From Nocardia nova SH22a (lineage in GTDB: Bacteria > Actinomycetota > Actinomycetes > Mycobacteriales > Mycobacteriaceae), in assembly GCF_000523235.1 (NCBI RefSeq), contig NZ_CP006850.1:4960001-5024000 (forward strand): a DNA stretch of 64,000 nt, in the 5' to 3' direction. This document shows positions 24,089 to 41,981 of this stretch, piece after piece (position 1 is the stretch's first letter; each line of letters starts with the position of its first letter). Below the pieces are notes generated by a model. That model was given only the letters and a program-made list of their open reading frames with translations. It was not told where the DNA came from and ran no database searches. The translations under genes and the position numbers were made by a program.

Positions 24089-24252
24089 AATGGACCAGTT
24101 TCCCCCACCCGGCCTCGGCAAGTCCAACCGGTTTGCCCACCACCCGGCGGAGCTGGGCAATTGTACGGGCGATGCCGGGATCCTGGCTGTCGTCTCAGGA
24201 ACTGATGGCACACTCTTAGGCCGATACGCAACCGACACGGGAGGACCGGGTA

Positions 24253-25908: not shown

Positions 25909-25920
25909 TCGAGCCCGTTG

Positions 25921-25962
25921 ACGACTGTGCCGCCGCCCCGAAAGGGACGGCGGCACAGTCGT
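25921..25962. terminator. Bidirectional terminator between convergent genes
   Basis: ACGACTGTGCCGCCG (25921-25935), mismatch C, CCC, GAAA loop, GGG, A, CGGCGGCACAGTCGT (48-62): 15+3 pairs with one mismatch, followed by TTT. It lies between the plus-strand coiled-coil gene (ends 25908) and the minus-strand operon (ends 25974) and can serve both. Confidence 0.9.
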
Positions 25963-25973
25963 TTCGGCGAGTG

Positions 25974-26363
25974 TCAGCTCTTCTTGGGATCGGCCGGGCT
26001 CGGTTCACCGAACATGCCCTGCTGCGGCGGGGTCAGCGGCAGCGGGCTGAGCATGTCCTTGTGCCCGTTGCGGACGCTGCAGTATTTGAACGGCCCGCGC
26101 GGATCGAACAACCGCGTCATGTGCGGATCGGCGTGATCGAGGAACCACACGCTCATTCCGGTCTGCGCGTCCTGGCGCAGGTACTCCCAGGCACGCCACA
26201 GCGCTTCCAGCCGCATGGCGGCCTCGGCGTGTTTCCACCACTCCGGACACCACACCGTATCGGTGAGATCGGTGACCTGGCGCCGGTAGACGAGACTCAG
26301 ATAGTTCTCGACGAACTCGACGACATTCGAGTAGATCATGTCCTGGGGCTGCTGATCGGTCAC
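25974..26363 (-). CDS. DUF4913-family protein
   Basis: 129 residues, soluble. The pattern WCPEWWKHAEAAMRLEALWR followed by AWEYLRQDAQTGMSVWFLDH and ADPHMTRLFDPRGPFKYCS is that of DUF4913 proteins, which I associate with actinobacterial conjugative or secretion clusters. Its GTG start overlaps the stop of the coupling ATPase gene by four bases, making it the last gene of the operon and a likely cytoplasmic partner of that ATPase, perhaps an adaptor for substrates. The role is inferred from position. Confidence 0.75.
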   Translation of the reverse strand: MTDQQPQDMIYSNVVEFVENYLSLVYRRQVTDLTDTVWCPEWWKHAEAAMRLEALWRAWEYLRQDAQTGMSVWFLDHADPHMTRLFDPRGPFKYCSVRNGHKDMLSPLPLTPPQQGMFGEPSPADPKKS

Positions 26364-28195
26364 AGCGGGCGAACCTCCTCGGGCTGTCCGTAGGTCGTCG
26401 GCGGCTGCCCGGGCTCCGAGCCGCCGTCGATCACGCTGCGCTCGTCGACCAGATCACCGATCGTGGTGCGGCGCTGCGGATCATGACGTTCGATGGACTT
26501 GCGCACCTCGGCAGCGTACTCCCCTTCCCACCACGGCACGGTGCGCACCAGCGTCGCCGGGGAGCCCGAGGAGAACACCACCGCCCGGCCGCGCGGCAGG
26601 GTCGCGAGCGCGTTCGCATTGAGGGTGCGCGAGGAACCCAGCGACCGCGAATAGCTCTTGCCGCCCTTGGATTCCGAGACCGACGAGGAGATCGCGTCGT
26701 AATCCCCGATGGCCTCGGAGCGGGCCGCGAGGAACCCCATATCGTCGACACCCGGCCCGAGAACCTTGATATTGGCCGCCGCCCACAGCGCGTCCATCCC
26801 GGCCGGACCCCAGCAGCGCGCACCCTGTGCCCAGGACTGCAGCACGGTCATCACCACGATGCCGCGGGATCCGAAGTGGCTGTACTGCTTCGGCAGATCC
26901 TTCCACCGCACAATGTTCGCGGCCTCGTCCAGCACCGCGAGCAGCGGGATGTCGAGCCGACCCATGTGCTGATGGGTGGCCTTGCGCATCGCCACATCCA
27001 TGACGGCCTCGGTCAGGGCGCTGACCAGCGGACCGGCCGAGCCACGCCCCTCCAGCGAGAGGCAATAGAGCGTCGAATTGCGGTCCAGGAAATCCCATTC
27101 GTCGAACTGGTAGCCATCGCCGATCGGCGTCACCCACTGATGCACGTTGGACAGCTTCAGGCACCGCACCATCTTCTTCGCGGTGCCGAAGACGCCGTCG
27201 CGCGTACGTTCTCCGGTGTTGTACTGCTGTGCCAGACCGGATGCCACGAGGTGGTGGCTCGCCGCGCGCAGCAACTCGACCGGCTCGGGATTACCCGGAT
27301 TGGTGACCCATTCCCACACCTGCGTGATCGGTCGGCTGGCCACGGCGGCAGCGAGAAACAGACCGGCCAGCAGATCCTCGGCCTCGGGATCGAAGTAGCT
27401 GTCCGGGGTGCCGTCACCACCGTCGTCCGCGTCGGCGAAGTGGCCCGCGAGCCGGGCGGCCCGCATCTCACACCCCTCCTGCCGGGCATCCACCCAGGCC
27501 AGCGGATCCCAGTACCAGCCCGCGTGCGTCTCCCCCGCCACGCCCTGCGGATCGAAGACGAACGTCCGTGATCCCTTGCCCTCGCGCACATCCCGGGTCG
27601 CGTCGACGACATCGCGCTTGTTGGAGGTGACCAGGACCGGCCCCACCGCCGACAGGATCGCGGGGATCACCCGGGAGGTGGTCTTGCCCTGGCGCGGGCC
27701 CCAGATGTCGAGGTGCAGATCCTCGTACGAGCCGAACAGCATCGCCCCGTCGGCCACGCCGACACCGATCGGCACGCCGGGGGAATCCTCGTAGCCGAGC
27801 CGCACCCCGAGTTGCTTGGCCTTCGCCCGCACCCCGGCCTCGGTCAGGGCCGCGATCGCGCCGCCCGATCCCATGTACTGGGCCTTGTCGTCGACGGGCA
27901 GTTTGCCCCGGCCACGACGTTTCTTCAGCTCACGGCGCACCATCACGACGGCGATCACGACCGCCACGACGAGCAGCACGATCACGGTCGACGGGCCCGG
28001 CCAATGCAGTTGCCCGCGGGCGATCTTCGCGATACAGGCCACCGGATTGATCGGAATGTCCTGCGGCGCGCCCGACAGCTTGTTACCGAGATGCAGTGCG
28101 ACCCACAGGGTTCCGACCACCGCGAAACCGATGTAGATCATGTACAGGGTGAGGTCTGGTCCCGGATCGGCCGGGTCCTTCACCTTCTTCGCCAT
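26360..28195 (-). CDS. VirD4/TraG-type type IV secretion coupling ATPase
   Basis: 611 residues. Two N-terminal membrane helices (LTLYMIYIGFAVVGTLWVAL and VIVLLVVAVVIAVVMV) precede a cytoplasmic P-loop domain: Walker A GPRQGKTT with Lys171 and Walker B LLAVLDEA with Asp423. TraG/VirD4 proteins recruit DNA or protein substrates to a type IV secretion channel. An AGGAGG ribosome site precedes the ATG. It sits in a cluster with VirB4-, VirB6- and VirB8-like genes, but no relaxase is seen in the window, so protein substrates are worth considering. Confidence 0.88.
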   Translation of the reverse strand: MAKKVKDPADPGPDLTLYMIYIGFAVVGTLWVALHLGNKLSGAPQDIPINPVACIAKIARGQLHWPGPSTVIVLLVVAVVIAVVMVRRELKKRRGRGKLPVDDKAQYMGSGGAIAALTEAGVRAKAKQLGVRLGYEDSPGVPIGVGVADGAMLFGSYEDLHLDIWGPRQGKTTSRVIPAILSAVGPVLVTSNKRDVVDATRDVREGKGSRTFVFDPQGVAGETHAGWYWDPLAWVDARQEGCEMRAARLAGHFADADDGGDGTPDSYFDPEAEDLLAGLFLAAAVASRPITQVWEWVTNPGNPEPVELLRAASHHLVASGLAQQYNTGERTRDGVFGTAKKMVRCLKLSNVHQWVTPIGDGYQFDEWDFLDRNSTLYCLSLEGRGSAGPLVSALTEAVMDVAMRKATHQHMGRLDIPLLAVLDEAANIVRWKDLPKQYSHFGSRGIVVMTVLQSWAQGARCWGPAGMDALWAAANIKVLGPGVDDMGFLAARSEAIGDYDAISSSVSESKGGKSYSRSLGSSRTLNANALATLPRGRAVVFSSGSPATLVRTVPWWEGEYAAEVRKSIERHDPQRRTTIGDLVDERSVIDGGSEPGQPPTTYGQPEEVRPL

Positions 28196-28231
28196 CTCGC
28201 CTCCTGAGGTGACCGGGTATGTGCGTGCCGC

Positions 28232-28897
28232 TCAACGGAATCCGTCGAGCCGCCAGCCGTCGGGGGTGTGGACGACGGTGGCGATCACCGTCGAGGGTGG
28301 CAGGGTGTCGCGGGCGCCGTCCGGGTGGACCGCGGTCTGCTCGATACCGATCTTGAACTGCCGATGATCGGGATCGGTTGTGGTGGGCGCCGATTCGCCG
28401 GAGGCGAAGGCGAACGCCTCCACCCGCACCCCGGCGCGGCCCCATTCCCCCCACTGCAGAGACGGATTGGGCGTCGCGCCGTCCGCCGGGGTGTCGAGGG
28501 TGTGGAGCAGGCTGGGGCCCAGCCACTTCCGCGCCCGCGCCAGCGAGGCCCCTTGTGATTCGGAAGCCGGATACCAGGTGAATATCTCCCGCAGCGCGGC
28601 GACCGCAACCCCGTCCGGTGTGCCGGGATCGGGTGCGGGCGCGGCCTCCAGCTGCCGCGGCGTCGAGGGCACGGGGGTGGTGCCGGACCCATCGCCCCTG
28701 CTCGCGCAGGCACCGGTCAGCAATGCGACGCTCACCACCAGTATCACCACCAGGTTCGCGTAGACGGTCCGTGCCGTGGGTCGGCGGCCCGGCTCCCGGG
28801 ATGCCGGGCACTGTCTCCAGGTTATCCGCCCGGCGACCCGCGCGGTTGCTCCCGGCGCCCCGGTCGTCTCCGCGTGTCCCGAATGTGGTGACCTCAC
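28232..28897 (-). CDS. Putative lipoprotein of the secretion locus
   Basis: 221 residues. A long basic N terminus leads to a hydrophobic helix and lipobox-like LLTGACASRG (the -3 position is Thr, so slightly atypical). The exported part (REIFTWYPASESQGASLARA, ARKWLGPSLLHTLDTPA, VIATVVHTPDGWRLDGF) has the NTF2-like pattern often seen in secretion-associated lipoproteins. GTG at 28897 overlaps the stop of the wall hydrolase gene by four bases. Role inferred: a wall-side component of the machine, possibly VirB7- or VirB8-like. Confidence 0.7.
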   Translation of the reverse strand: MRSPHSGHAETTGAPGATARVAGRITWRQCPASREPGRRPTARTVYANLVVILVVSVALLTGACASRGDGSGTTPVPSTPRQLEAAPAPDPGTPDGVAVAALREIFTWYPASESQGASLARARKWLGPSLLHTLDTPADGATPNPSLQWGEWGRAGVRVEAFAFASGESAPTTTDPDHRQFKIGIEQTAVHPDGARDTLPPSTVIATVVHTPDGWRLDGFR

Positions 28898-30582
28898 AAC
28901 ACCCTCCGTAACCGCGCGTCGCCGGGAACCGGGGCCTCGCTGACACCCGAGGGGTCGGCGGCCCGGATCATCCGGCCGTTTCCGGCGTAGATGCCGACCT
29001 CCGCCGGGCCGCGCAGGCCGAATCGCGAGAACACCAGATCGCCCGGCGCGGCACTGCGGATCGGGACCTCGGCGCCCGCCTCCCATTGCTGCTCGGCGGT
29101 CTGCGGCAGGATCTTGGCCCCCGAGGAGGCGGCGAACACCGCCGCCGAGGTCAGCCCCGGGCCGTCGAGGCCGCCGCCGGTCGGGCCCTGCGGTCCGCCA
29201 CCGCCCCACACATACGGTGTGCCCATCCACTGCTGCGCCGCCGCGAGAATGTCCGCACCGGACGAGCCGTGCCCCGGTTCGAACCGGCCGACCGATCCGG
29301 GCGCGCGGTACTGCGCCTCCATCGCCAGAATGTTCGTGACGTACGGCCGGGTCTCGGAGTAGTGGGCGGGAACCTGGTTGGGCATACCGCCGGACGCCAG
29401 CACCGCCCCCTCACCGGCGTTGTAGGCGGCCAGCGCCAGCGGCACCACGTCGCCGTGCACCCTGCCCTCCCCGATCCAGCGTTCGACCTGGTGCGCGATC
29501 GAGCACATGTAGCGGCCCTGGGCGATGATCGCGTCACCGTCGTCCCACAGACTCGCCTGGCCGTTGCCGTCGGCGTCGAGCAGATAGGGTCTGCCGTCGT
29601 CGGGATCGGCGGCATGGGCGGTACTGGGCAGGAACTGGGCCAGACCCTGCGCACCCGCGGGCGAGGTGAGCCCCCGCCGGAAACCGGATTCCTGACGGCC
29701 CTGCGCCGCCAGTATCGACGGACTGATCTCCGGGCACAGCGAACCCGCACGGCGATACCAGATCTCGAGTTCGGGCGGCACCTTCCCGTCGGCGAGCGCA
29801 CCACCCGCGGTGCCGAATCCGCGGCTGCACAACGGATTCCGCGAATACGGCGACGCGCCACCGGCATTCGGCGTCACGGCGCCGTCGAGCCAGGGCAGCG
29901 GATCGATCTGGTGGCCGCCGGTGAGACGCCCGCCGGGCACGATCTCGAAATGCAGGTGCGGGCCGGTGGATTCGCCGGCGGATCCGACCGTGCCGACCTG
30001 CTGCCCCGCCCGGACGCGCTGACCCACCCGGACCAGCACGCCGCTGGACCACTCGTGGCCGTAGACCGCGGAGAAGGGGCGTCCGTTGACATCGACCGAG
30101 TCGATGACGATCCAGTTGCCGAATCCCGATGCGGGCCCGGCCGCGACGACCACACCGTCGGCGACCGCGAATTCCGGGGTGCCGTCCGGTGCGGCCAGGT
30201 CGACGCCCAGATGGGTGCCGTCGCGGGCGCCGAACGGATCGCTGACGGTGAACGATCCGGCGGGCAGCGGCCAGGTCCGGCGGATCGGCGCGACTCCCGC
30301 GGCCAGCGACGGGGCACCGGTCACGCCCGGATTCGTTCCGGCGGCGGGGATGTCGGCCGCGCTCGGGGTCGGCGACGGTTCACCCGGCGGCACCGTAGCG
30401 GCCGATGTCGCCGATGCCCCGGCCGCCCACGGCGCATCGGAGGTGTCGGGCAGTTCCGGCACGGGAGCGGTCGGCTCGTCCGCGCAGGAATCCTCCGACG
30501 ACGGCAGCACGATCACCACCACCAGCGTGATCAGGGACAGGACACCGCCGAGGACCAGGGCGGTGACGGTTTTCGCGTTCAC
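28894..30582 (-). CDS. Three-domain wall hydrolase: M23 peptidase, lytic transglycosylase, degenerate NlpC/P60
   Basis: 562 residues with one N-terminal membrane helix (residues 5-27). Residues about 115-232: M23/LytM endopeptidase with all zinc ligands (His124, Asp128, His209, His211 in THLGVD and PHLHFE). Residues about 280-425: SLT transglycosylase with catalytic Glu298 (QESGF) and SPAGAQGLAQFLP plus AYNAG. Residues about 443-562: NlpC/P60 fold, but the catalytic Cys is Gly474 (LDGPGLTS in place of DCSGL) and the usual His is Glu528 (PAEVGIYAGNG), so this module should be inactive and may bind wall. Such enzymes open peptidoglycan for a secretion channel. Overlaps the lipoprotein gene by four bases. 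Confidence 0.88.
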   Translation of the reverse strand: MNAKTVTALVLGGVLSLITLVVVIVLPSSEDSCADEPTAPVPELPDTSDAPWAAGASATSAATVPPGEPSPTPSAADIPAAGTNPGVTGAPSLAAGVAPIRRTWPLPAGSFTVSDPFGARDGTHLGVDLAAPDGTPEFAVADGVVVAAGPASGFGNWIVIDSVDVNGRPFSAVYGHEWSSGVLVRVGQRVRAGQQVGTVGSAGESTGPHLHFEIVPGGRLTGGHQIDPLPWLDGAVTPNAGGASPYSRNPLCSRGFGTAGGALADGKVPPELEIWYRRAGSLCPEISPSILAAQGRQESGFRRGLTSPAGAQGLAQFLPSTAHAADPDDGRPYLLDADGNGQASLWDDGDAIIAQGRYMCSIAHQVERWIGEGRVHGDVVPLALAAYNAGEGAVLASGGMPNQVPAHYSETRPYVTNILAMEAQYRAPGSVGRFEPGHGSSGADILAAAQQWMGTPYVWGGGGPQGPTGGGLDGPGLTSAAVFAASSGAKILPQTAEQQWEAGAEVPIRSAAPGDLVFSRFGLRGPAEVGIYAGNGRMIRAADPSGVSEAPVPGDARLRRVL

Positions 30583-30592
30583 CGCGCATCCG

Positions 30593-30901
30593 TCATGTCG
30601 CGCGGCGGGTTTCGTTCAGCGTTTCCACCAGCGTCCGGTTCATCTCCGCGGCGGCGGCCAGCTGCTGTTGCAGCAGCGCCACCTTCCGGCGCAGCGCCAC
30701 CGCGTCCATCCGCTCGAGGCTCGGTCCTTCCGCCGCTCGCACCCAGTTGCGCACCGAATTGGTGTGCACGCCGATCTGTTCGGCGACCACCCGGCATGCC
30801 TCCGACTCGCTCCGCAATTTGTCGGTCAGTGCGATGACCTGCTCCACCGCTGCCTCCCGCACCTGCGGAGACACTCGGCGGTATGACCGGTGCGGCATCA
30901 C
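30593..30901 (-). CDS. IS3-OrfA-like helix-turn-helix protein embedded in the operon
   Basis: 102 residues. Residues about 10-58 carry the IS3-family OrfA-type HTH (REAAVEQVIALTDKLRSESE, then IGVHTNSVRNWVRAAEG), followed by a leucine-zipper segment (MDAVALRRKVALLQQQLAAA). No OrfB transposase, terminal inverted repeats or target duplications are seen, and the start (GTG at 30901 or ATG at 30898) overlaps the stop of the VirB4 gene. It therefore looks like a domesticated DNA-binding protein translated with the secretion genes; it could be a regulator or a DNA-targeting subunit. Confidence 0.7.
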   Translation of the reverse strand: MMPHRSYRRVSPQVREAAVEQVIALTDKLRSESEACRVVAEQIGVHTNSVRNWVRAAEGPSLERMDAVALRRKVALLQQQLAAAAEMNRTLVETLNETRRAT

Positions 30902-33900
30902 GCGGCACTCCCCTCGTCGCCCCGGCGGGCCGTGGATTCGGTGAATTCGCTGAAGCGCTGGTTGGTTTCGTGAATTCCGCTCTCCTTCTCCGATGCGGTG
31001 AATTCCATATGGAACGGAATGCCGGGGCGGCGATCCTCACCGATCTTGAGCAGGAATTTTCCGGTGCCGGGCGCGGGGGGCCGGGCCTGGCCGGGTTTGA
31101 GCGCCTCACCGGTCAGCGCCTGCGGCGCCGACCAGCTGGTCACCATCTCCTCCTCCGCCGAGGTGAACGGGATGGTGGAATCCAGACGGCTGATCTCCTC
31201 GGGCGGCAGCGCGCCGAAGATCTTGGCACGGGCGCGTTCCAGGAAGCCGAGCGCCTTGGCGATCGCGGCCTCCGAGCCGAGCGATTGCAGGTCCTTGATG
31301 GTGTGGCTGATCATGATCAGCGAGGTGGCCATACCGCGCTGCAGACGGGTCAGTTCGTCCACCCGGTCGACCATGAAATCGCCCAGGCCCAGCACCTGCC
31401 ACAACTCGTCCATGACGACCTGGAAGTACCGCTGCGGGCCCAGTTTCCCGTCCGCGAGGACATGCGCGGCCTCGACCGAGGCGAATCCGTCGGCCCAGCA
31501 GGCCAGCATGACGGCGGCCTTGAGTTTCTTGTCACCGGACGGGATATGGGAGACGTCGATGCAGACCGCCACCGAGGACGTGTCGATCGGTGTCGTGGTC
31601 TGCCCGTTGAACACCGCGCCGAACGGCCCTTGGGTCAGTGCCCGCAGCGAACGACGCAGCCCCTTGGTGGCCTCGTGGTATTCGTCGGTGTTGTCGGCAC
31701 CGGCGTCGAGCATCAGCTCCTGGCCACCGGCGATGACGACCTCGAGCAGATCCTCCATGATGGGCGGGGATTCGGGTGCGAAGCCGCTGCCCTCGCGGTA
31801 GAGGATGCGCAGTGCCGTGGAGATCAGCGTCTCCTCGTAGTCGCGCACCCGGGCGCCGCGCACCAGTTCCACCAGACCGGCGATCAGGGTGACCTGCCGG
31901 GCCCGCAATTCCTGGGTCACCTGCAACTGCAGTGCAGGCAGCTCGGCCAGCTGCGGCACGATCGAGCCGAGGACGCCACCGGCGAGCGGATTGAGTTTGC
32001 CGTGTCCGTACCCCAGATCGATGACCTGACCGCCGACCATCTCGACCATCTTGCGATAGTCCGGTTTCACATCCGCCAGGATCAGCGGGGTGATGCCCTG
32101 TGCGACACCGCCCAGCACGATGCGGCGCACGAGCGAGGACTTGCCGAAACCGTTGAGCCCCAGGACGAACAGGCTCGGCGCGGTGATGAAACTGCCGCGC
32201 ATGAACCAGTTCATCGGATCGAAGCAGACCGGCGCGCCGGTGTGCAGATGCGAACCCAGCGGTGTGCCGATCAGGGGGGCGCCGGCGCCGACCGACCACG
32301 GCCACAGCCCCGCGACCTGTGCGGTGGTGGCGCGGTATTCGACCGGGCGTCCGACGACGTTCATGCGTCCGCCGCCCGCTCCGATGTATCCGCGATCGGT
32401 CAATTGCGCGGTGCCGCGGTCGAATCCGTCCTCCACGACCGATTCGATGCGCGCGGCGGCGTTGACGCGGCGCAGATCGTCGGTGCGGATCCGGAACGCC
32501 GCCCACGCGGCCCGCAATCCGGCGCCCTCGCGGGCCACCGCCTCCAGCCGTGCCCGCTCACGGTCGCTCAGGAGTGGGGGACCCTGATTCTTCTTCTTGG
32601 CGGGCCGGGTCCGGCGATCCGGTCCTGGCGCCGCGGCACTGCCCGAAATCTGTTCGTAGGACGGTAGTTTCGAACCGTTGCGATCACGCAGTCCGCGGTC
32701 GCCGCGGCCACGGCGGGACGCACCGGCGCCGCGCCGGTCCGTCGAACGCGCGGTACCGTTGTCGTATCCCGTGTCGCGCCGGGATCCGCGCTCGTAGTTT
32801 CCGTTCACGTCGCGCGCCCGTCGGGTCCGGGGCGGCAGCTGATCGAATCCGGCGGGCAAATCGGAGTGCTGAGGCGTGCCATTCGCATACGAGTTCTCTC
32901 GGTCCTCGGGCCGTGGACCGGCCCCACCCGCGCGGCGGCGCTTACGGCCGCTCTCCGGGATGTCCTGCGCCCCTGTGGCATCGTGCGAGCGGTCGCCAGC
33001 CGGTGCGAACCATTCGTCGATGTCGTCGGCGGGGGGTGTGCCGGTGTTCCCGGCGCCTGCGGGCGCCGCGTGGCGCTCCTGCTCGGAGGTCTCGTCGGCC
33101 CGGACATCCCCCGGGCCCGCCTCGGGACTGCCGGTCACATCCGGCATCCGCGCATCGAACGAGTCGGCGTACGGCGCGCCCGGACCACCGATGGCATCGG
33201 CCGCCGACGTTCGCCCACTGTCCCCGGTTACCGCCTCGTCACTACTTCCGGACACACCGGTGATCGCCGAATCACGCTGGTTCCCAACAGATTCTCGTCC
33301 GGCGGGCTCCCCCGTTCCCGCAGACCCGACCGTTCCGCCGGACTCGACCGTTCCGGCGGATGCGGCCGTTCCAGCCGAGGCGGCCGGACCGGCGGGATCT
33401 GCCGGACCAGCGGACTCTGCCAGACCGGCGGATCGGACCGGCCCGGCGGATGCAGCCGGTTCGGTAGATGCGGCTGGTCCAGTAGATGCGGCCGGTTCTG
33501 CGGATGCGGCCCGTCCGGCGGCCTCGTCGGAAGACCTGCCCTCCCGTCGCTGCACGGCGCGATCGGCACCACGAGTACCGCCACCCGCCTCGATGTCTTC
33601 CCCCGCGGCCGAGGACCGGCCGCGCACAGGATGTTCGGGCGAGTCATCGTGGCTCGAATCCGCCTGTACCGCTCGACTTTCCCGTACCGCGCGACTGTCC
33701 TGCGCTGCGTGCCTTTCACGGGCCGCGCGCGCGGTTCGCCCGGACCTCTCGCCCGAATCCGCATCCGCCCGAGCCCGCGCGCCGCGGACCTCGCGTTCCG
33801 GACCGCCGCGCTCGGAAACGCCGCGCTCCGGAACCCCTCGCTCGGGAACACCCTGCCCGGAATCCGACGAACGCTGTGCCGCATTGACTTCCGCGGCGGT

Positions 33901-34332
33901 GCGCCCGGGACGGGTATCCCCTACCTCGAGTTCGGGTAGCGATCGCCGCCGCGCGCCACGCGACTCGGTGGCGCCGGTGTCGTAGTGGTCACCACGCGGG
34001 CGGCGGCCCCGGGCCTCCTGCTCCGGTGCGGGTTCGGCGTCGCGCCGTGCCCGGGTTCCGGATGCCGGATCCGCGTCGCGACGGCCCCGGCCTCGGTCCT
34101 CGTGCCGGGTGCGCCGACGGATCGGCCGCAGCGGCACGTCGTCCCAATCGGCAGGTGCGCCACCGTGTTCCGAGCCGGGCAGACCGGGCGCGTACGCCTC
34201 GGCGCCCCACTCGTCGTCGCGGATCCGCCCGCGCCGCCCGGCCGGGATCGGATTCTCCGGATCCACCACCCGCTCGCTGTAGCGCGGCGGCTCGCCGCGG
34301 TAACGGACCGGTGGTTCCTGGTCACCTGCCAT
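30898..34332 (-). CDS. VirB4-type type IV secretion ATPase with long disordered N-terminal extension
   Basis: 1144 residues, against roughly 450-800 usual for VirB4. Residues 1 to about 560 are Arg/Glu/Ala/Gly-rich, disordered and repetitive (hexapeptide repeats near 270-345). The ATPase part has Walker A LGLNGFGKSSL with Lys731 and Walker B VVMDELW with Asp975; SHTIKDLQSLGSEAA and RPGIPFHMEFT follow. VirB4 proteins power substrate transport and pilus or channel assembly at the inner membrane. It starts six bases after the SCO6880-type gene. The extension may be a docking or wall-side tethering tail. Confidence 0.85.
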   Translation of the reverse strand: MAGDQEPPVRYRGEPPRYSERVVDPENPIPAGRRGRIRDDEWGAEAYAPGLPGSEHGGAPADWDDVPLRPIRRRTRHEDRGRGRRDADPASGTRARRDAEPAPEQEARGRRPRGDHYDTGATESRGARRRSLPELEVGDTRPGRTAAEVNAAQRSSDSGQGVPERGVPERGVSERGGPEREVRGARARADADSGERSGRTARAARERHAAQDSRAVRESRAVQADSSHDDSPEHPVRGRSSAAGEDIEAGGGTRGADRAVQRREGRSSDEAAGRAASAEPAASTGPAASTEPAASAGPVRSAGLAESAGPADPAGPAASAGTAASAGTVESGGTVGSAGTGEPAGRESVGNQRDSAITGVSGSSDEAVTGDSGRTSAADAIGGPGAPYADSFDARMPDVTGSPEAGPGDVRADETSEQERHAAPAGAGNTGTPPADDIDEWFAPAGDRSHDATGAQDIPESGRKRRRAGGAGPRPEDRENSYANGTPQHSDLPAGFDQLPPRTRRARDVNGNYERGSRRDTGYDNGTARSTDRRGAGASRRGRGDRGLRDRNGSKLPSYEQISGSAAAPGPDRRTRPAKKKNQGPPLLSDRERARLEAVAREGAGLRAAWAAFRIRTDDLRRVNAAARIESVVEDGFDRGTAQLTDRGYIGAGGGRMNVVGRPVEYRATTAQVAGLWPWSVGAGAPLIGTPLGSHLHTGAPVCFDPMNWFMRGSFITAPSLFVLGLNGFGKSSLVRRIVLGGVAQGITPLILADVKPDYRKMVEMVGGQVIDLGYGHGKLNPLAGGVLGSIVPQLAELPALQLQVTQELRARQVTLIAGLVELVRGARVRDYEETLISTALRILYREGSGFAPESPPIMEDLLEVVIAGGQELMLDAGADNTDEYHEATKGLRRSLRALTQGPFGAVFNGQTTTPIDTSSVAVCIDVSHIPSGDKKLKAAVMLACWADGFASVEAAHVLADGKLGPQRYFQVVMDELWQVLGLGDFMVDRVDELTRLQRGMATSLIMISHTIKDLQSLGSEAAIAKALGFLERARAKIFGALPPEEISRLDSTIPFTSAEEEMVTSWSAPQALTGEALKPGQARPPAPGTGKFLLKIGEDRRPGIPFHMEFTASEKESGIHETNQRFSEFTESTARRGDEGSAA
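33304..33520 (-). repeat. 18-base tandem repeats coding hexapeptides in the VirB4 N terminus
   Basis: About twelve imperfect 18-base units (for example ccggcggatgcggccgtt) encode hexapeptides of the form xSAGxx (ASAGTA, ESGGTV, RSAGLA, ESAGPA). Copies diverge mostly at wobble positions; the array sits within the predicted disordered region. Length variation between strains is plausible. Confidence 0.75.
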
Positions 34333-34338
34333 CTACGC

Positions 34339-35829
34339 TCACCCCGCCAATGCCTTGGGAATACTCGCGTGTTCCGGCAGGATCACCCCGCAGCCGAGCG
34401 AGGCCGCGAAGGCCGCGGCCTGGTAGCGGTAACACCGCCGGATCTTCAACCGGGCCTGTGTGGACAGGTCACGGGTTATCGCCTCGATGCGCGGCAGATC
34501 GCCGCGCAGGGGTTCGGTGATGGTCACCAGCGCACCGAACCTGGTCACGCCGTGTCCGCGGGCCTGCTCCTCGCGCGCCTGCTGGGTGGCGCCCACCCGC
34601 AGGGTCGCCGAGGCGGACACCACGCCGCGCTCACTCTGCTGCGCGACCAGTGCGTTCTTGTAGTCGTCGTCGACGATTTCGGCGGCGTCGGCGGCCGAAT
34701 GCGGCCGGTAGACGATGGCGATCCGCTTGCGCGGCACCTCCGGATTCGGCGCCAGCAGCCGCTGCAGGACACGCTCGTCCACCGCGCCCTCGGGGGCCGC
34801 GTCCATCTCCCAGGTGACCGACCGGCCGCCGTCGTGGATGAACTGATCCCAGCGTTCCTCGTGCGAGATCGGCCCGGCGTCGGCCCACTCCAGGCCGTGC
34901 CCGCCCGCCTCGCCCGCGGCCACCTCGAGATCGGCCTGGGCGGCCGGGTCGTAGCTGCGCCGGATGAAGGAGATCACCTCGTCGGCCGACATCGGCTGTG
35001 CCCGCACCCCGGCCTCGGCCAGCGCCGCGCAGATGCCCGGCAGCCGACGGCCGATCTCGACGGCCTCCTCGGCCGGATTCTTCCGGCGCTCGGCGGTCGT
35101 GGCCTTGAAGGTGATCGCCACCCGCGGCAGCAATTGCACGCGCTCCTGGGGCAGTTCGGTCGCCAGTTCGTACATCACCTGCTGGGCAAGCGCGGGTGAT
35201 TCCGGCCGGGTGATCGTGGAAACCTCGGTGAGCAAACGGTTTCCGGTCTCGGGCACGGTGTCGATCACCGGGACCACGGCGATGATGTCGGAGGTCTGGC
35301 CGAGCGAGGCCAGGAAGGTGCCCCAGGCCGATACCCACCGGTCGATCACGGGCTGATCGACCGCCTCGTGTCCCTGCGGCCAGGCCCGCAACACCACGGT
35401 GTACTGCGCGAACTGGGGCAGATGGATCATGCCGAAGCTGTACCCGCCCGCGTCGATGCCCTCGTAGAGACGTGAGGGCGCCATCAGCCCGGGCAGACGC
35501 GCGACGCCGCCGGGAATGCGGGAGAACCGGCCGCCGCGATAGACGTGCTCGCCTTTGCTGCGGCCGCGCAACCAGTGGAACATCATCAATCCCGTCTCGT
35601 AACCGGAGCGGCCCCCCGTCCGCCACACCAGTGGAACCATCACGACCACGCCGATGATCGCGATGAACAGTGCCGGTTTGGGCCCGGCGACCAGGGCTGT
35701 CAGCAGCGCGGTGATGACGACCACGAAGCCGAGCACCGTCTCCCCCCAGCGCAGTCCGAAAAGTCCTGCGCTGCGGGGCTTCTGCCACAGCCCGTACGAG
35801 CGGTGCTCGTAGGATTCCGTCGACGTCAT
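34339..35829 (-). CDS. SCO6880-family membrane-associated secretion protein
   Basis: 496 residues from ATG at 35829. The N terminus has two or three membrane helices (ETVLGFVVVITALLTALVAG, ALFIAIIGVVVMVPLVW), and the rest is a large soluble domain (GVARLPGLMAPSRLYEGIDA, LRAWPQGHEAVDQPVIDRWV, ALVTITEPLRGDLPRIEAI). SCO6880-type proteins accompany VirB4-, TrbL- and TraG-like genes in actinobacterial integrative elements, perhaps combining VirB3 and PrgI-like roles. The start overlaps the VirB6-like stop by four bases (ATGA). Biochemical role unknown. Confidence 0.82.
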   Translation of the reverse strand: MTSTESYEHRSYGLWQKPRSAGLFGLRWGETVLGFVVVITALLTALVAGPKPALFIAIIGVVVMVPLVWRTGGRSGYETGLMMFHWLRGRSKGEHVYRGGRFSRIPGGVARLPGLMAPSRLYEGIDAGGYSFGMIHLPQFAQYTVVLRAWPQGHEAVDQPVIDRWVSAWGTFLASLGQTSDIIAVVPVIDTVPETGNRLLTEVSTITRPESPALAQQVMYELATELPQERVQLLPRVAITFKATTAERRKNPAEEAVEIGRRLPGICAALAEAGVRAQPMSADEVISFIRRSYDPAAQADLEVAAGEAGGHGLEWADAGPISHEERWDQFIHDGGRSVTWEMDAAPEGAVDERVLQRLLAPNPEVPRKRIAIVYRPHSAADAAEIVDDDYKNALVAQQSERGVVSASATLRVGATQQAREEQARGHGVTRFGALVTITEPLRGDLPRIEAITRDLSTQARLKIRRCYRYQAAAFAASLGCGVILPEHASIPKALAG

Positions 35830-37304: not shown

Positions 37305-37354
37305 GAGATTCACTCCTCGATGCGTCGCAGGGAATCGATCCGGAACCGCTGTGC

Positions 37355-38197
37355 TCACCATTTCGTCCACCCCTGCAACGTGTCGACGTATTCGCTCTGA
37401 GCCGCACGGGCCTCGGTCGGCTTCAGCCGCCAGTCCCCGTTGTCCCAGACCATGATCAAGCGGATCGCCGCCCACACCTGTTTGCCGTCGTTGACCGGAC
37501 CGCGCGCGGCCAGGCGCACGATCGCCATGTCGTCGGCGTAGTTCTCGATCTGGAACGCGTCCGGCGCGACCAGATATCTCGTGATCCGTTCCGGCTGCTG
37601 CTCGGGCAGTTTGCCGGAGCCGCGGGCCTTGTCGTAGGCCGCGATCTGCTGGGCCGAGACCCGCACCTGCCGGACGTAGAGATCGCGGTCACCCGGACGC
37701 GCGTTGAGCCGGTAGGTGATCTGCGCCGCCGCCAATGCCGCCCCCTGCGGTGTGTGGGAGTACCCGACGGCCAGCCCGCTGTCGTCGATGCGGGTGGGGC
37801 CGTCGCTGGTGGAGAACGGCACCGAGGCGCCGAAGACCCGCTGCCAGCCCTTCGGTTCGGTGGTGCCGGCAGGCGCCGCGGTGAGCCAGTCCGAATCCGA
37901 CGGACCGTGCTCCTGCGACGAGTTCTGCGGAAGTGGCTGTCCCGCAGGATTGTTCGGAATATCGACCCGGCGCCCGAACAGATCCGTATCGGGTGCGGCG
38001 AATCCGGTCGCACCCGAACCCGCCGCCGGTGAGGGCGCCGAATCCGCGTGCCGGGCACCGGGTGGGGACGTGGGCGTGGACGTGTCACGGCCGACGTACA
38101 TGAAGATGCCGACGATCACGATCAGGGCGATGACCGCGGCGGAGGCGATGACACCGAAGGAGACACTGCGTTCACCGGTGTCGCTCTTGTCGCTCAC
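37355..38197 (-). CDS. VirB8-like anchored component (single N-terminal helix)
   Basis: 280 residues. A short cytoplasmic start and one membrane helix (SFGVIASAAVIALIVIVGIF, residues 13-32) are followed by a Pro/Ser-rich linker and an exported domain (GLAVGYSHTPQGAALAAAQI, YVRQVRVSAQQIAAYDKA, MVWDNGDWRLKPTEA) with an NTF2-like look. Topology and place next to VirB6-like and small membrane proteins fit VirB8/TrbF, which scaffolds the channel. GTG at 38197 has a perfect GGAGGTGAGGC leader. Confidence 0.72.
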   Translation of the reverse strand: MSDKSDTGERSVSFGVIASAAVIALIVIVGIFMYVGRDTSTPTSPPGARHADSAPSPAAGSGATGFAAPDTDLFGRRVDIPNNPAGQPLPQNSSQEHGPSDSDWLTAAPAGTTEPKGWQRVFGASVPFSTSDGPTRIDDSGLAVGYSHTPQGAALAAAQITYRLNARPGDRDLYVRQVRVSAQQIAAYDKARGSGKLPEQQPERITRYLVAPDAFQIENYADDMAIVRLAARGPVNDGKQVWAAIRLIMVWDNGDWRLKPTEARAAQSEYVDTLQGWTKW

Positions 38198-38271
38198 GCC
38201 TCACCTCCGATCGTCGAATATCGTTGCCGCCGTTCATGTTGTCGGCTCACACAGCTGAGTACTGTCAAGGG

Positions 38272-38532
38272 TCACGCAGGCAGGAAGGTCAATGCGATCG
38301 CGCTCGCCGAACTGGCGACGATCGCGCCGATCAGGCTCATCACGATGCCGTGGGAGGCATCGTTGACGGCCATGTCGTCGCGCATCGCCGACCACAGCCG
38401 GCCCGCGGAGACGATCATCCAGGCCAGGCACAGCAACAGCACGCACCACAGTAACCAGTTGATCAGCTGCATGATCGGTTGGATCACGTCCGCGGGCATC
38501 TGCTTGTAGGCCAGCACGATCGCGGTACCCAT
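38272..38532 (-). CDS. Tiny two-helix membrane protein
   Basis: 86 residues, two hydrophobic helices (IQPIMQLINWLLWCVLLLCL, MSLIGAIVASSASAIALTFL) joined by a short charged loop. Its ATG at 38532 overlaps the stop of the next upstream gene by one base (TGATG). Pilin-sized genes in this position of type IV loci are often VirB2- or VirB3-like, but no diagnostic motif is present. Confidence 0.65.
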   Translation of the reverse strand: MGTAIVLAYKQMPADVIQPIMQLINWLLWCVLLLCLAWMIVSAGRLWSAMRDDMAVNDASHGIVMSLIGAIVASSASAIALTFLPA

Positions 38533-38828
38533 CACGATCCGATGACGGCGTTCATGATCGTGCCCGCACTGGTCGCGACGATGCCGCCGATCATGGCGCC
38601 CGCCACCATCTTCGGCGACTCCAGGCCACCGCCGGTCCACTTCTCCCAGGCGAAGCGGCCACCGGCGTACGTGATGCCCAGGATGCCCGACAGCAGGACG
38701 AACCACGTGAAGTAGCGGACCAGTTTCATCAACTTGTCGGCGGCCGGCGGTGTCTCGGGAGTCGGGTTCCCGACCTGAGCGAGAACAGCGCCGTACGTCT
38801 CGTGTACAGCGGCCAGGATGGTACTCAT
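38532..38828 (-). CDS. Tiny two-helix membrane protein, pilin-like candidate
   Basis: 98 residues. An exported N-terminal stretch (VHETYGAVLAQVGNPTPETP) and two helices (YFTWFVLLSGILGITYAGGRF, MVAGAMIGGIVATSAGTIM) match the size and layout of VirB2/TrbC-type subunits or DUF6112-like proteins from actinobacterial elements. ATG at 38828 has GAAGGA upstream. It is coupled to the gene at 38272 by a one-base overlap. Confidence 0.68.
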   Translation of the reverse strand: MSTILAAVHETYGAVLAQVGNPTPETPPAADKLMKLVRYFTWFVLLSGILGITYAGGRFAWEKWTGGGLESPKMVAGAMIGGIVATSAGTIMNAVIGS

Positions 38829-38907
38829 CGAGCGTCCTTCTCAATAGGTGATCGGAATACAAAGCCGGGTACCAGGGGTACACCGTCGGATAGAACTGCC
38901 GGTGCGG

Positions 38908-39558
38908 TCATCGTCGCTCCCCGTCATCGGGCTGCGAACCACCACCGACCGTCTCCCGCACCAGGTCGACGATGCTCATGCCCAGTGCATCCACCTCGTG
39001 CGGAACCTCTTGCAGCGGATCGAGTTTGCGCTTGCGCTGCTGCGGCGGCGGGTCACCGGGTGACCACACCGGCAGCTGGTCGGGTTCGACCAGCGTCCAT
39101 TCCTCGATCCAGGGCAACTGCCACACCTGTCCGGCCAGCGCGCCGACCACATCGCGATAGCGGCGGATCTCGGCGGGGATCCGGCCCGGCCGCACGGCCA
39201 CGGTGACCAGGCCCAGCACCTCGCTCGGGCCCGCCAGCCCGGCACGGTGCTGGCGCAGCAGATCATGGGCGCGGGTCAGCCCGGAGATGGTCTCCCGCGC
39301 GACCAGCACCACGAAAGGCGATTCCCGTTCGAACACACCGGGCCAGCGCCGGTGCGAATCCGCCGCAGGCGCAAGCACATGCGCGAGGGTACTGGCTCCC
39401 GCGCCGCCGTGCACCCCCAGCAACCACACCAGCGGCGCCCGTCCGGCGCCGGGAACCGGCCGGTCCCAGATGAGGGCACGACGGGACTCCGGCGGGGCGA
39501 CAACGCCTGCCGCTGGCGGGTTTTCGGATGGACGAGGTTCCTTCATGGCCGCCGTCAT
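38908..39558 (-). CDS. ParA/CpaE-like ATPase-fold protein lacking the Walker A lysine
   Basis: 216 residues. A disordered start leads to a P-loop-like LLGVHGGAGASTLAHVLA at about 47-64, in which the GKT lysine position is Ala55; CpaE/TadZ-type relatives show similar GGxGxST loops. The rest resembles MinD/ParA-like Rossmann strands (VLVARETISGLTRAHDLLRQ, VLGLVTVAVRPGRIPAEIRR). DUF6668 is a possible family. ATG at 39558 overlaps the stop of its upstream ParA-like neighbour by four bases. Such proteins often position secretion systems at the membrane. Confidence 0.7.
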   Translation of the reverse strand: MTAAMKEPRPSENPPAAGVVAPPESRRALIWDRPVPGAGRAPLVWLLGVHGGAGASTLAHVLAPAADSHRRWPGVFERESPFVVLVARETISGLTRAHDLLRQHRAGLAGPSEVLGLVTVAVRPGRIPAEIRRYRDVVGALAGQVWQLPWIEEWTLVEPDQLPVWSPGDPPPQQRKRKLDPLQEVPHEVDALGMSIVDLVRETVGGGSQPDDGERR

Positions 39559-40427
39559 GATGCCATCCCCGTGAGCAGCTGCCGGTACGCCCTCTGGGTT
39601 TCGGCGTCGAGTGCGTTGTGGCGCACCAGTTCTCCGCGCGCGAGCTGCGGATCGTAAGGGATCTCGCGGATGTCGCGCACCCACCCGGTGAGGTGTTCGC
39701 GCAGGTGATCGGCGACCCGGGAATCGTTGCCCGGCAACTGATGTGAAACCACGATGGTGGTGTCACCGACGATCCCGCCACCCTGCCCCTCGGCATGGCC
39801 GCCGAATTCGTCGTCGAGCAACTCCAGGGTCACCCGCAAACGATTGGCAGCGTCGGCGCGCGCCGGAATCGCCAGTACCAGAGCCACTTCGGCGTCCTCG
39901 AGCAGCGGCCGCAACTGCCGTGCGGAGATCGGGTTGCCACCGTCGTACACGGGCGTGAAGCCCGCCTCCGTCACCGCGCGGGCCACCGTCAGATAGGTGG
40001 CGCGGCGACGCAGCGGCGACGCGTCACGCCACAGCAGCCCGATTCCCGAACTCGCGCGCGACAGGCACTCCTTCAGCGGTGCGGGTTCGTCGTCGCCGCG
40101 ACCGTACAGCCACTGCTGCAGGCTGATCGGGCTCAGATGTTCGTCGGCGCCCCGCAGGGCCAGATCGCTGCCCGCGACGGTGGCGTCGACCGCCACGGCG
40201 GCGGTCTGCGCCGCCAGCTCACCCGCGAGTCCCAGTGCGGTCGTGGTCGTTCCGGCGCCACCGCAACCACCCACGACCAGAATCGGGCGCGGCGCCGTAC
40301 CACCCTCGCCGTCGCCCCGCCGTCCCTTGCGCAACCGGACAACCGGCGCCCGTCCACGCGGTCGCGAGCCCTCCGGAACGTCCGCGGTGGACGTCTCGTC
40401 GAGCCATCGGCTCCAGTCCTGTCCCAT
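39555..40427 (-). CDS. ParA/MinD-like ATPase-fold protein, noncanonical P-loop
   Basis: 290 residues. A basic N-terminal stretch leads to VVGGCGGAGTTTTALGLAG at residues 51-69, a ParA-like loop in which Thr60 stands where KGGxGKT has lysine. Further strands: DATVAGSDLALRGADEHLS and LVLAIPARADAANRLRV, with IVVSHQLPG and ELVRHNALDAETQRAYRQL at the end. Likely works with its overlapped neighbour at 38908. Whether it binds ATP needs testing; a localisation factor for the secretion system is the best guess. Confidence 0.75.
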   Translation of the reverse strand: MGQDWSRWLDETSTADVPEGSRPRGRAPVVRLRKGRRGDGEGGTAPRPILVVGGCGGAGTTTTALGLAGELAAQTAAVAVDATVAGSDLALRGADEHLSPISLQQWLYGRGDDEPAPLKECLSRASSGIGLLWRDASPLRRRATYLTVARAVTEAGFTPVYDGGNPISARQLRPLLEDAEVALVLAIPARADAANRLRVTLELLDDEFGGHAEGQGGGIVGDTTIVVSHQLPGNDSRVADHLREHLTGWVRDIREIPYDPQLARGELVRHNALDAETQRAYRQLLTGMAS

Positions 40428-40442
40428 CTCTCAGCTCTCCTC

Positions 40443-41594
40443 TTACCCGGCCGCGATGCCCGTGATCAGGGTCCGGCCACCGACCACCGCCGTGGTCACC
40501 AACTGCTTGTCGTAGGTGGCGGGGGCCGTGCCCGGCCGCCGTTCGGTCACCTCCACCGAATACCGGTTGTCGTCCAGTGTGACCACCCGCACGCAATAAC
40601 CGGTGCCCGGCGGCACCGACTCGATACCGCGCTGGATCACCGCGGCGGGCGACACCGTCGCGTCTGGCGCCACCACCTCGAGTGCCCGCGTCGCGGAGCG
40701 TTCGACGTAGAAGGCGTGCTGGAACCACATGATCGCGTCCGGCCCGGACATCGTGCCGCCGGTGTCCGCACCGCGCATCACCCGGGCGGAGCGTTCGGTC
40801 GGGCACTCCGCCGACACGTCGCGCGCCACACCGGAACCGGAATGGAAGGACGAGGTCAGTCCCAGCATGGGCGGGTCGTCGGCGCTGATCGGCGCGACCG
40901 GCACCCGGGCCGTCGACTGTTTCACGGTGCCACCGGATCGCAGCAGATACAACGCGAATCCGCCCGCGATCGCCAGCAACAGGACGGCTATCACCAGGAC
41001 CACGGTGACCCGCAACGGACTCGGCCGGACGTAATCGCGCAGCGCGGGCGAGGCCGCGCCGGGGGCCCGCCGGACCACCCGCCCCGACCCCTCGTCACCG
41101 GTGTCGTCGAGGCCGCCGCGCGACGGCAGGATCCACTCGGTGCCGTCCGAATCGTCCGCGTAGTCCCCGTTCTCGTAGTCCTCGTCGCCGCCGTCGCCCC
41201 CCGCGGCGGCGTGGGATTCCTCCGCATCGTCGCCGGTGGCGCGGATCGAGCGCGGGCGACGACGGCCACGGGCGCGGGCGTCGTCGTAGTCCTGGGGCAG
41301 CCGGACGACCTCACCCTCGCGGGGCGGATAGTCGTCGTCGGGGCCGGGGGCGTGATCGCCGACCCAGTCCGACCAGCCGCCGACGAATTCGGCGCGCCCG
41401 GTGGCGGGTCCGTCGGCGAACGGGATGTCGAAGGGTTCGGGTTCGGTGTCGCGGATGTAGTGCGGATAGCGCGCTGCCCCAGGCTCGGACTCGTCGTCGA
41501 CGGCATCGGACTCGCCGGGATCGGATACGGGCACGGCGTGTTCGGGTTCCAGCGCCGGGAACCACCGTTGCACTTCTTTGTACGGCTTCAACAT
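40443..41594 (-). CDS. Single-pass secretion-locus protein with acidic cytoplasmic tail
   Basis: 383 residues. Residues 1-190 are acidic, disordered and cytoplasmic (DAVDDESEPGAARYPHYIRD, GDDAEESHAAAGGDGGDED); one helix follows (RVTVVLVIAVLLLAIAGGFA), and an exported domain with GSGVARDVSAECPTERSARV, YVERSATRALEVVAPDATVS and YCVRVVTLDDNRYSVEVTE. This resembles other VirB8-like/NTF2-like anchored components. It starts after GATGAGGGA and ends 16 bases before the ParA-like gene. No family assigned with certainty. Confidence 0.7.
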   Translation of the reverse strand: MLKPYKEVQRWFPALEPEHAVPVSDPGESDAVDDESEPGAARYPHYIRDTEPEPFDIPFADGPATGRAEFVGGWSDWVGDHAPGPDDDYPPREGEVVRLPQDYDDARARGRRRPRSIRATGDDAEESHAAAGGDGGDEDYENGDYADDSDGTEWILPSRGGLDDTGDEGSGRVVRRAPGAASPALRDYVRPSPLRVTVVLVIAVLLLAIAGGFALYLLRSGGTVKQSTARVPVAPISADDPPMLGLTSSFHSGSGVARDVSAECPTERSARVMRGADTGGTMSGPDAIMWFQHAFYVERSATRALEVVAPDATVSPAAVIQRGIESVPPGTGYCVRVVTLDDNRYSVEVTERRPGTAPATYDKQLVTTAVVGGRTLITGIAAG

Positions 41595-41651
41595 TCCCTC
41601 ATCCCCGCGGAGCCGGGCACGTCGTGCAGCATCGTCGGACCCTCTCGGCGA

Positions 41652-41981
41652 TCAGTTCGTGGAGAACGGGTAGTTGTTGTCAGCGGTACCACCATGGGAC
41701 AGCACCGACGGCACACCACCGGGTGCGGCGTCACCGAGGCCCTTCCCGAACGGAAATTGTCCCGTACCCGACGAATTCGACGAACTCGACGCGCCGCACG
41801 GCGCCTCCGAGATTCCCGCCGCGAACCATTCACGCAGGTCGAGGGCCATGGCGAGCGGTTCGGCACCGGCCGGATGAGAGGCCGGGAGGGATGCCGGAAC
41901 GGATGCGGATGCACGAAATCCCCGGCGGAGATGCGTAGCGACCGGTACGGTCGCTGCCGAGCACGTCAGCACGGTCAGCAT
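41652..41981 (-). CDS. Small secreted protein, first gene of the secretion operon
   Basis: 109 residues. The N terminus (MLTVLTCSAATVPVATHLRR) is signal-like though short; the mature part is Ser/Ala/Gly-rich (WFAAGISEAPCGASSSSNSS, GTGQFPFGKGLGDAAPGGVP). ATG at 41981 has AAGGGGG upstream. Two cysteines (Cys7 within the signal region and one in the mature part) do not suggest a lipobox with confidence. Position at the head of the operon makes it a candidate exported substrate, but nothing in the sequence proves that. Confidence 0.6.
   Translation of the reverse strand: MLTVLTCSAATVPVATHLRRGFRASASVPASLPASHPAGAEPLAMALDLREWFAAGISEAPCGASSSSNSSGTGQFPFGKGLGDAAPGGVPSVLSHGGTADNNYPFSTN

Follow-up and report, generated by a model that had tools for sequence, protein, structure and literature searches.

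A relaxase-less type IV secretion locus at a fixed chromosomal site in Nocardia and its possible use by mobilisable plasmids

Introduction

In Streptomyces, the gene sets cmdABCDEF (SCO4126-4131), SCO6871-6884 and SLP2.19-23 have in common a protein of the SCO6880/CmdC family and a VirB4-like partner, and cmd is chromosomal (PMC2782261, in the available part of that paper). The same pair is encoded by a likewise chromosomal type IV secretion system (T4SS) gene set of Nocardia nova SH22a, which is the subject of this study. The stretch of DNA that was analysed, referred to as the window, comprises 64,000 nucleotides (contig NZ_CP006850.1, bases 4,960,001-5,024,000 of the 8,348,532-base single-contig genome). 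Judged by gene content and order, the locus is a plasmid-class conjugation module minus the relaxase.

The cmd locus consists of six genes, among which neither VirD4 nor a wall hydrolase is described in the same excerpt, and has a developmental phenotype; its comparison with Nocardia was made by description. This chromosomal relative can thus serve development without replacing plasmid transfer genes (PMC2782261). Chromosomal VirB4- and VirD4-like genes also occur in actinobacterial T4SS-type integrative and conjugative elements (ICEs), as in the Nocardia locus. However, ICEs are defined by an integrase and a relaxase in the part of PMC3218068 consulted, and neither was found at the Nocardia locus. 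Mycobacterial T7/T4 hybrids on linear M. avium plasmids resemble it in having VirB4 and VirB8 relatives (the latter a candidate in Nocardia) and no relaxase found, but carry ESX genes (PMC12803027, excerpt), whereas the Nocardia locus is chromosomal and no ESX genes were seen among the open reading frames (ORFs) of its module. According to a review, circular rhodococcal plasmids of a shared backbone, including pKNR, encode a T4SS with a MOBf relaxase, and R. equi regains its virulence plasmid by conjugation (PMC6852188, excerpt).

A preliminary description of the locus, made from the sequence alone, had set it apart from TraB-type conjugation and from type VII secretion. This distinction holds. 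A VirB4/VirD4 pair is present instead of the single FtsK-like translocase of the TraB/FtsK type, and no Pfam match to EccB, EccC, EccD or WXG100 was obtained among the module ORFs scanned, the SCO6880 protein giving a weak EccE match (0.016).

Gene content of the locus

The T4SS genes are packed closely on the minus strand between relA and a peptidyl-prolyl isomerase gene (ppi). The features are as follows, with TM standing for transmembrane.

43361..45814, minus strand: relA, upstream chromosomal flank (Pfam HD_4, RelA_SpoT, TGS, ACT)
41652..41981, minus strand: small ORF of 109 residues upstream of the operon, with homologues in 26 of 80 Nocardia loci
40443..41594, minus strand: single-TM protein of 383 residues, with homologues 24-43% identical in five of six plasmid modules
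39555..40427, minus strand: ParA/MinD-like ATPase (weak ParA-like match; P-loop GGCGGAGTT in 54 of 54 Nocardia ORFs)
38908..39582, minus strand: DUF6668-like second P-loop protein (26.0 bits, cut-off 27)
38532..38828, minus strand: membrane protein of 98 residues, pilin-like candidate by size and position, with homologues in six of six plasmid modules (43-68%)
38272..38532, minus strand: membrane protein of 86 residues, VirB2/pilin candidate (weak PF18895, 0.13, and NF045849, 0.17; two hydrophobic segments)
37355..38197, minus strand: single-TM protein, VirB8-like candidate by its one TM segment and plasmid homology
35826..37361, minus strand: VirB6-like polytopic membrane protein (weak TraG_N match, 0.035; seven hydrophobic segments; plasmid homologues 34-52%)
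34339..35829, minus strand: SCO6880 family protein, with a hydrophobic N-terminus (VirB3-like by position) and a VirB4 N-terminal domain
30898..34332, minus strand: VirB4 motor domain in the C-terminal half, after a low-complexity N-terminal stretch of variable length
30593..30901, minus strand: IS3 OrfA-like helix-turn-helix protein of 102 residues (PF01527, 26.6 bits, cut-off 24.1)
28894..30582, minus strand: wall hydrolase with M23, SLT and NlpC/P60 domains, the catalytic Cys of the last replaced by Gly or Ala
28232..28774, minus strand: lipoprotein-like protein, no fold assigned
26360..28195, minus strand: VirD4-type coupling protein (PF02534, 3e-23; PF12696, 3e-28)
25974..26363, minus strand: DUF4913 protein (PF16259, 3e-41), adjoining VirD4 here and on plasmids
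25351..25908, plus strand: basic protein of 185 residues (pI 11), convergent with the operon, a relative of plasmid relaxosome-neighbourhood proteins
24253..25119, plus strand: peptidyl-prolyl isomerase, the other chromosomal flank (weak PpiA model match, 7e-6, and synteny)
22811..24238, minus strand: hisS (TIGR00442), beyond the flank and adjoining ppi

The VirD4-, VirB4-, VirB6- and VirB8-like proteins, small membrane proteins, hydrolase, lipoprotein and two ParA-like proteins named in the preliminary description were all recovered, the VirB6 label on a weak match and hydrophobic segments and the VirB8 label on one TM segment and plasmid homology. The gene list given there holds, but the plus-strand gene at 25351-25908 had been left outside the module. 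The products of the SCO6880 and VirB4 genes jointly constitute one split VirB4. The first belongs to the SCO6880 family with 559 bits (NF042935, cut-off 60), and the second, an ORF of 1144 residues, matches NF045975 over residues 673-1049 (2e-15, 55.7 bits, far below the model cut-off of 590). This division offers a structural reading for a family that NCBIfam names by locus number.

GLNGFGKS and VVMDE motifs were present in all 75 Nocardia VirB4 motor ORFs, whose lengths range from 656 to 1202 residues, and all 72 VirD4 ORFs had the Walker A motif GPRQGK[ST] and the Walker B pattern DEA. Both ATPases retain intact nucleotide-binding motifs, a feature expected of Gram-positive conjugative T4SSs of the nocardial plasmid type. 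A VirB8 fold for 37355-38197 was dropped, as the structure model was too poor (predicted local distance difference test, pLDDT, 42). Searches of PDB sequences with three profiles yielded nothing useful.

Relationship to plasmid conjugation modules

A tblastn search with the SCO6880 protein matched 455 plasmid records, the best 40 of which show 51-62% identity and belong to Rhodococcus, Nocardia and Prescottella; R. equi virulence plasmids match at about 51%. In the six plasmid modules that were inspected, the shared genes stand in the same order as in the window, from the ParA-like proteins to VirD4-DUF4913, with extra genes interspersed and the cutinase gene at variable positions. Circular plasmids with this order are pKNR of R. 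opacus B4, pR09C01 of R. erythropolis and one of Nocardia sp. NBC_01327. Four plasmid homologues of the DUF6668-like protein are annotated as DUF6668 (51-56% identity).

A relaxase gene was located within 8 kb of the DUF4913 gene in five of the six modules (three MOBP with MobC, two MobF), whereas no relaxase or MobC was found at the chromosomal locus, which occupies one fixed site. The pKNR record is typed MOBP, differing from the MOBf of the text excerpt cited above (PMC6852188). The sixth module (NBC_01377 plasmid 1) is interrupted by a TnsA/TniQ-type insertion, and no relaxase or VirD4 was in view. The TnsA/TniQ-type insertion of NZ_CP109567.1 sits between the VirB4 and the helix-turn-helix/hydrolase genes of a Nocardia plasmid T4SS module.

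The chromosomal wall hydrolase differs from three plasmid proteins in lacking the NlpC Cys. Its NlpC/P60 domain reads DGPG or DAPG in 65 of 65 Nocardia ORFs, compared to DCSG in three Rhodococcus plasmid homologues; in three other plasmid homologues the motif was unmatched. The M23 motifs are kept in the Nocardia hydrolases despite the altered NlpC/P60 domain, which is possibly a wall-binding instead of a cutting domain. Eight of 50 module-spanning loci lack the hydrolase and keep all 13 core genes, and represent natural deletions.

Fixation at one site across Nocardia

A scan for SCO6880 found 113 relatives, from which 80 contigs were kept, all labelled Nocardia. The nearest (97-98%) are from N. 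africana, Nocardia sp. BSTN01, N. aobensis, N. mikamii, N. kruczakiae and N. nova. relA was present on 43 of the 80 contigs and ppi on 67. Gene order between ppi and relA, the comparison of which had been proposed as a check in the preliminary description, was colinear in all 38 loci with both flanks. Each of the 50 module-spanning loci had the complete set of 13 core genes.

A high-score class of SCO6880 (at least 555 bits) was detected in 127 of 150 Nocardia genomes, based on nine candidates per genome and without individual checks of the positions of these copies. The locus thus seemed absent from 23 genomes, but this was overturned for 21 of them by T4SS genes in the stretch behind relA, mostly on contigs ending within these genes. 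In numerous Nocardia assemblies a contig ends shortly upstream of SCO6880, close to where the VirB6 gene has its low-complexity end, and draft genomes therefore seem to lack the locus. Of the other two genomes, G087 has too short a contig and G069 had no T4SS genes in 4.1 kb. SCO6880 is spread over two frames in a single Nocardia genome (G072).

Beyond Nocardia, the slot was compared in 30 genomes of the family, and T4SS genes were found there in one of them, from another genus (G187). In the other 29, relA and ppi are present and enclose no T4SS genes, though other genes may intervene. Among seven genomes of other families, six had no T4SS genes between relA and ppi and one contig was too short. 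In a tree of 39 SCO6880 sequences, 23 copies from the slot (sampled from the 80 loci, with G072 and G187 added) formed one clade (99/99) beside copies from Nocardia plasmids.

Distances among 31 loci correlated with those of relA at r = 0.90 for SCO6880, 0.85 for ParA, 0.78 for VirD4, 0.61 for the convergent gene and 0.62 for ppi, values which were reached in none of 499 permutations. Median ratios of nonsynonymous to synonymous substitution rates (dN/dS) over the clades compared (up to five) were 0.01-0.03 for SCO6880, 0.05-0.13 for VirD4, 0.06-0.25 for VirB4 and up to 0.35 for the single-TM protein. Module genes overall range from 0 to 0.35, and relA from 0 to 0.04. The locus is inherited vertically under purifying selection. 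That it has long been resident, as suggested before, is borne out by the genus-wide site, the lack of T4SS genes there in 29 of 30 other genomes of the family, the monophyly of the sampled copies, the co-divergence with relA and the low dN/dS values.

Relaxase, integrase and attachment sites

The relaxase families PF08751, PF03432 and PF03389, to which this search was confined, had no match in the whole genome of the window. Plasmid relaxase, MobC and MobF queries and one plasmid integrase query gave no match in 83 chromosomal loci. No integrase was found among the window ORFs scanned with Pfam, a scan covering part of the window, and the window contains no tRNA gene. The longest direct repeat between 24001-26500 and 41001-46000 is 15 nt, and none of at least 12 nt exists between 24901-26000 and 41501-43500. 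The absence of relaxase, integrase and attachment (att) sites claimed in the preliminary description is hence upheld for the three relaxase families, the scanned ORFs and the repeat search. An ICE at the relA site was rejected for want of a relaxase, att repeats or variable presence: the 83 loci gave none of the genes queried, and 148 of 150 genomes hold the high-score SCO6880 class or T4SS genes behind relA. The preliminary description would have accepted an ICE on finding a relaxase and an integrase next to the operon in close relatives, or presence that varies between strains together with att repeats; neither was observed at this site.

The G + C content of the module is 0.696, compared to 0.682 for the rest of the window. 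Its dinucleotide distance (24.6) is the highest of five stretches compared, four partly overlapping controls yielding 14.2-21.0. Nevertheless, recent arrival is not supported by composition.

Relaxases encoded elsewhere were surveyed in the 35 genomes for which a single SCO6880 match, belonging to the high-score class, was reported. Of these, 18 contain TrwC (PF08751), seven Relaxase (PF03432) and none MobA_MobL (PF03389). Some MobF genes stand alone: in six genomes with a TrwC match, no relative of the window VirB4, VirD4 or SCO6880 was detected within about 20 kb on each side, and Pfam analysis of nine neighbouring ORFs from two of these six revealed no coupling protein.

The relaxosome-side gene

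The convergent gene at 25351-25908 was present in 72 of 80 loci, convergent in every case, and 64 of the 72 protein tails hold the pattern ER.R or ERR. No genus besides Nocardia is named among 120 listed of 175 matches, except for one labelled Streptomyces gardneri; the query was a stretch of 187 residues with an extra N-terminus and without the C-terminal tail. The impression that the gene is confined to Nocardia was overturned by relatives on plasmids. With the protein of one Nocardia relative as query, BLAST matched the end of R. erythropolis and R. opacus plasmid proteins (E values 1e-13 and 2e-8), and hhalign gave a value of 96% with the R. erythropolis plasmid protein.

These Rhodococcus relatives are located directly or two genes behind VirD4-DUF4913. 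On two Arthrobacter plasmids, a relative directly follows a MobC-relaxase pair. On a third, the match starts within the end of the relaxase gene; a fusion to the relaxase (labelled H62) was rejected, since the match is in a different frame and extends beyond the relaxase end. The N-terminal part of the plasmid relative matches inside a toprim protein behind VirD4-DUF4913 on a Nocardia plasmid (hhalign 96.7%). Compared to the plasmid version, the chromosomal gene is shorter and convergent. The relaxosome side of the module is, by these relationships, partly retained in the form of the protein at 25351-25908, and the coupling protein and DUF4913 are kept as well.

Nocardia plasmids without channel genes

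A search with the coupling protein encoded on a Nocardia plasmid of 39 kb returned 732 plasmid records, 23 of them from Nocardia, and 12 of these 23 were among the 60 listed. Six of the 12 were read: NBC_01388 (39 kb), N. farcinica HB204 (29 kb), N. salmonicida (49 kb), PE-7 (69 kb, in two pieces), NBC_01377 plasmid 3 (50,000 of 50,215) and N. sputorum (50,000 of 51,855), the last two being covered to 99.6% and 96%. The remainder are two 41-kb and two 87-kb N. farcinica plasmids and two N. asteroides plasmids.

VirD4, DUF4913 and at least one relaxase are encoded on all six plasmids read (29-69 kb). With chromosomal or plasmid queries, no channel genes were found on them at an E value of 1e-3; the lowest stray match was 0.02, over 75 VirB4 residues in PE-7. 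As a control for size, the window queries were applied to plasmids of other genera of 29-48 kb, namely six of the seven listed non-Nocardia plasmids below 48 kb (Miniimonas, Mycetocola, Pseudarthrobacter and three Arthrobacter). SCO6880 (1e-73 or better) and VirB4 (1e-47 or better) were detected in all six, VirB6 and DUF6668 in five.

In the coupling-protein tree, the six Nocardia plasmids fall into a single clade, adjacent to that of chromosomal VirD4 (94/89). Their mean identity to chromosomal VirD4 is about 50%, compared to 42% for five conjugative plasmids, a value lowered by two distant sequences. Two of the hosts, NBC_01388 and N. sputorum IFM12275, have the convergent gene on contigs of 8.9 and 7.6 Mb, respectively, that carry the same strain name. 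PLSDB types all six plasmids as non-mobilizable.

Proposed role of the locus

The explanation that we favour, at somewhat less than an even chance, is that the locus is a resident mating channel of plasmid origin which is used in trans by mobilisable plasmids. A conjugation T4SS of the nocardial/rhodococcal plasmid class would have become fixed in the relA-ppi interval, in the simplest case by a single event in the ancestor of Nocardia and one sister genus. The relaxase and MobC would have gone, while the channel genes, VirD4, DUF4913 and the relaxosome-side protein (25351-25908) were kept. The wall hydrolase, in many relatives together with a cutinase, would open the envelope; SCO6880 and the VirB4 motor would power a channel of VirB6, VirB8 and pilin; and VirD4-DUF4913 would deliver the substrate to it. 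This substrate would most likely be the relaxosome of other elements, above all of the Nocardia plasmids that have a relaxase, VirD4 and DUF4913 and no channel.

Chromosomal and plasmid halves may thus work together. More tentatively, we propose that Nocardia made the channel chromosomal and that one plasmid family shed its own, keeping relaxase, coupling protein and DUF4913, so that, in a fixed division of labour, the host would supply the channel to any compatible plasmid. If the channel is public in this sense, plasmids typed non-mobilizable would need no conjugative helper plasmid to spread within Nocardia. Given the selection on the locus, the host probably gains something more from it, e.g. 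exchange of chromosomal DNA.

Several observations weigh against this proposal. The long-term selection suggests a host benefit beyond helping plasmids, and the evidence is entirely comparative, transfer not having been observed. Channel-bearing Nocardia plasmids exist: 16 of the 455 plasmid records matching SCO6880 are from Nocardia, compared to the 23 Nocardia records matching the coupling protein, and one of the six unread plasmids carries this gene (NZ_CP089213, N. asteroides). All three relaxase families are lacking in 16 of the 35 genomes surveyed, including that of the window and the single-contig genomes G127, G128 and G132; in these 16, the locus does not owe its intactness to a relaxase of the same cell. 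The channel-less plasmids share one clade of coupling proteins and are not six independent cases, and the support joining this clade to chromosomal VirD4 is below the strict mark. Moreover, VirD4 of R. erythropolis and R. opacus is 47-50% identical to that of the window, and the window VirD4 scores the controls of other genera at 445-464 bits and the channel-less plasmids at 433-532 bits, so that by plain similarity all of these are equally near to it. Since these plasmids bring their own VirD4 and DUF4913, the chromosomal copies would be spare for them.

A protein-secreting T4SS is the next explanation to be considered, although we regard it as rather unlikely. Here, the relaxase was lost and the machine kept to deliver proteins to cells or to the outside, with recruitment by VirD4-DUF4913; the basic convergent protein with its Arg-rich tail could be a substrate or adaptor. 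Protein-delivering T4SSs are reported to have diversified from conjugation systems (PMC12857230, excerpt). Purifying selection fits such a host function, vertical fixation fits it as well as it fits a mating channel, and the 16 genomes lacking the three relaxase families fit it better. The constant orientation of the convergent gene and the tail pattern of its product are also in its favour. However, none of the ORFs scanned matched a known family of effectors or secretion signals, and nothing at the locus indicates a protein substrate. The relatives of the convergent protein are encoded in relaxosome neighbourhoods of plasmids, so its tail may reflect DNA binding instead.

The preliminary description had suggested that the task of the machine may be protein secretion or a wall function and not the movement of DNA. 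This is not established by the data: the coupling protein, DUF4913 and the relaxosome-side gene were kept, and, taken together with the six channel-less plasmids, whose relaxase and coupling genes are of the same family, they indicate transfer of DNA in trans no less strongly. If proteins are secreted, the locus would be a genus-wide secretion route for which we found no description in the open-access literature. The same literature yielded no description of a relaxase-less T4SS fixed across Nocardia or of its use by plasmids. The components of T4SSs, their plasmid modules and in-trans mobilisation are already known.

An improbable third explanation is a developmental machine as described for cmd, in which a T4SS-like complex acts in chromosome segregation or hyphal septation within the same mycelium. 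SCO6880 is said to resemble CmdC, and the Nocardia locus is likewise chromosomal and fixed. Deletion of cmdA-F led to defects in segregation and sporulation with no significant change in the transfer of an SLP2-derived plasmid, for which the related SLP2 genes are needed (PMC2782261, excerpt). Nevertheless, VirD4, DUF4913 and a wall hydrolase, undescribed among the six cmd genes in that excerpt, are retained at the Nocardia locus, which corresponds gene by gene to plasmid modules. Furthermore, null mutants of the related SCO6878 or SCO6881 showed no sporulation or pigment phenotype (unpublished data of the authors of PMC2782261, as quoted in the excerpt).

A dormant or decaying remnant of an ICE or plasmid, which would fit the missing relaxase, MobC and att repeats, the lost NlpC/P60 Cys, the eight loci without hydrolase and the divided SCO6880 of one genome, was rejected as very improbable given the dN/dS values of the module genes, the intact Walker motifs in all ORFs examined and the complete core sets in 50 of 50 loci.

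Additional observations

The cutinase of the plasmid modules is also chromosomal in 32 of 43 Nocardia loci with that stretch in view. In the window, its place is occupied by a gene for a DMT-family transporter, which was seen in 11 of the 43. A second relative of about 210 residues stands beside the VirB8-like candidate in 34 of 54 other Nocardia loci and is not present in the window.

The gene for the IS3 OrfA-like helix-turn-helix protein is kept under strong selection inside the T4SS operon (dN/dS 0-0.11). It has homologues in all six plasmid modules compared, and two plasmid records annotate it as 'transposase'.

The genome of the window also encodes a second VirB4-like ATPase, of the TcpF/AAA_10 kind, at about 1,783,900-1,805,000. 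It adjoins NlpC/P60, DUF4226, PPE/EspB-like and EspC-like genes, a setting unlike that of the relA locus.

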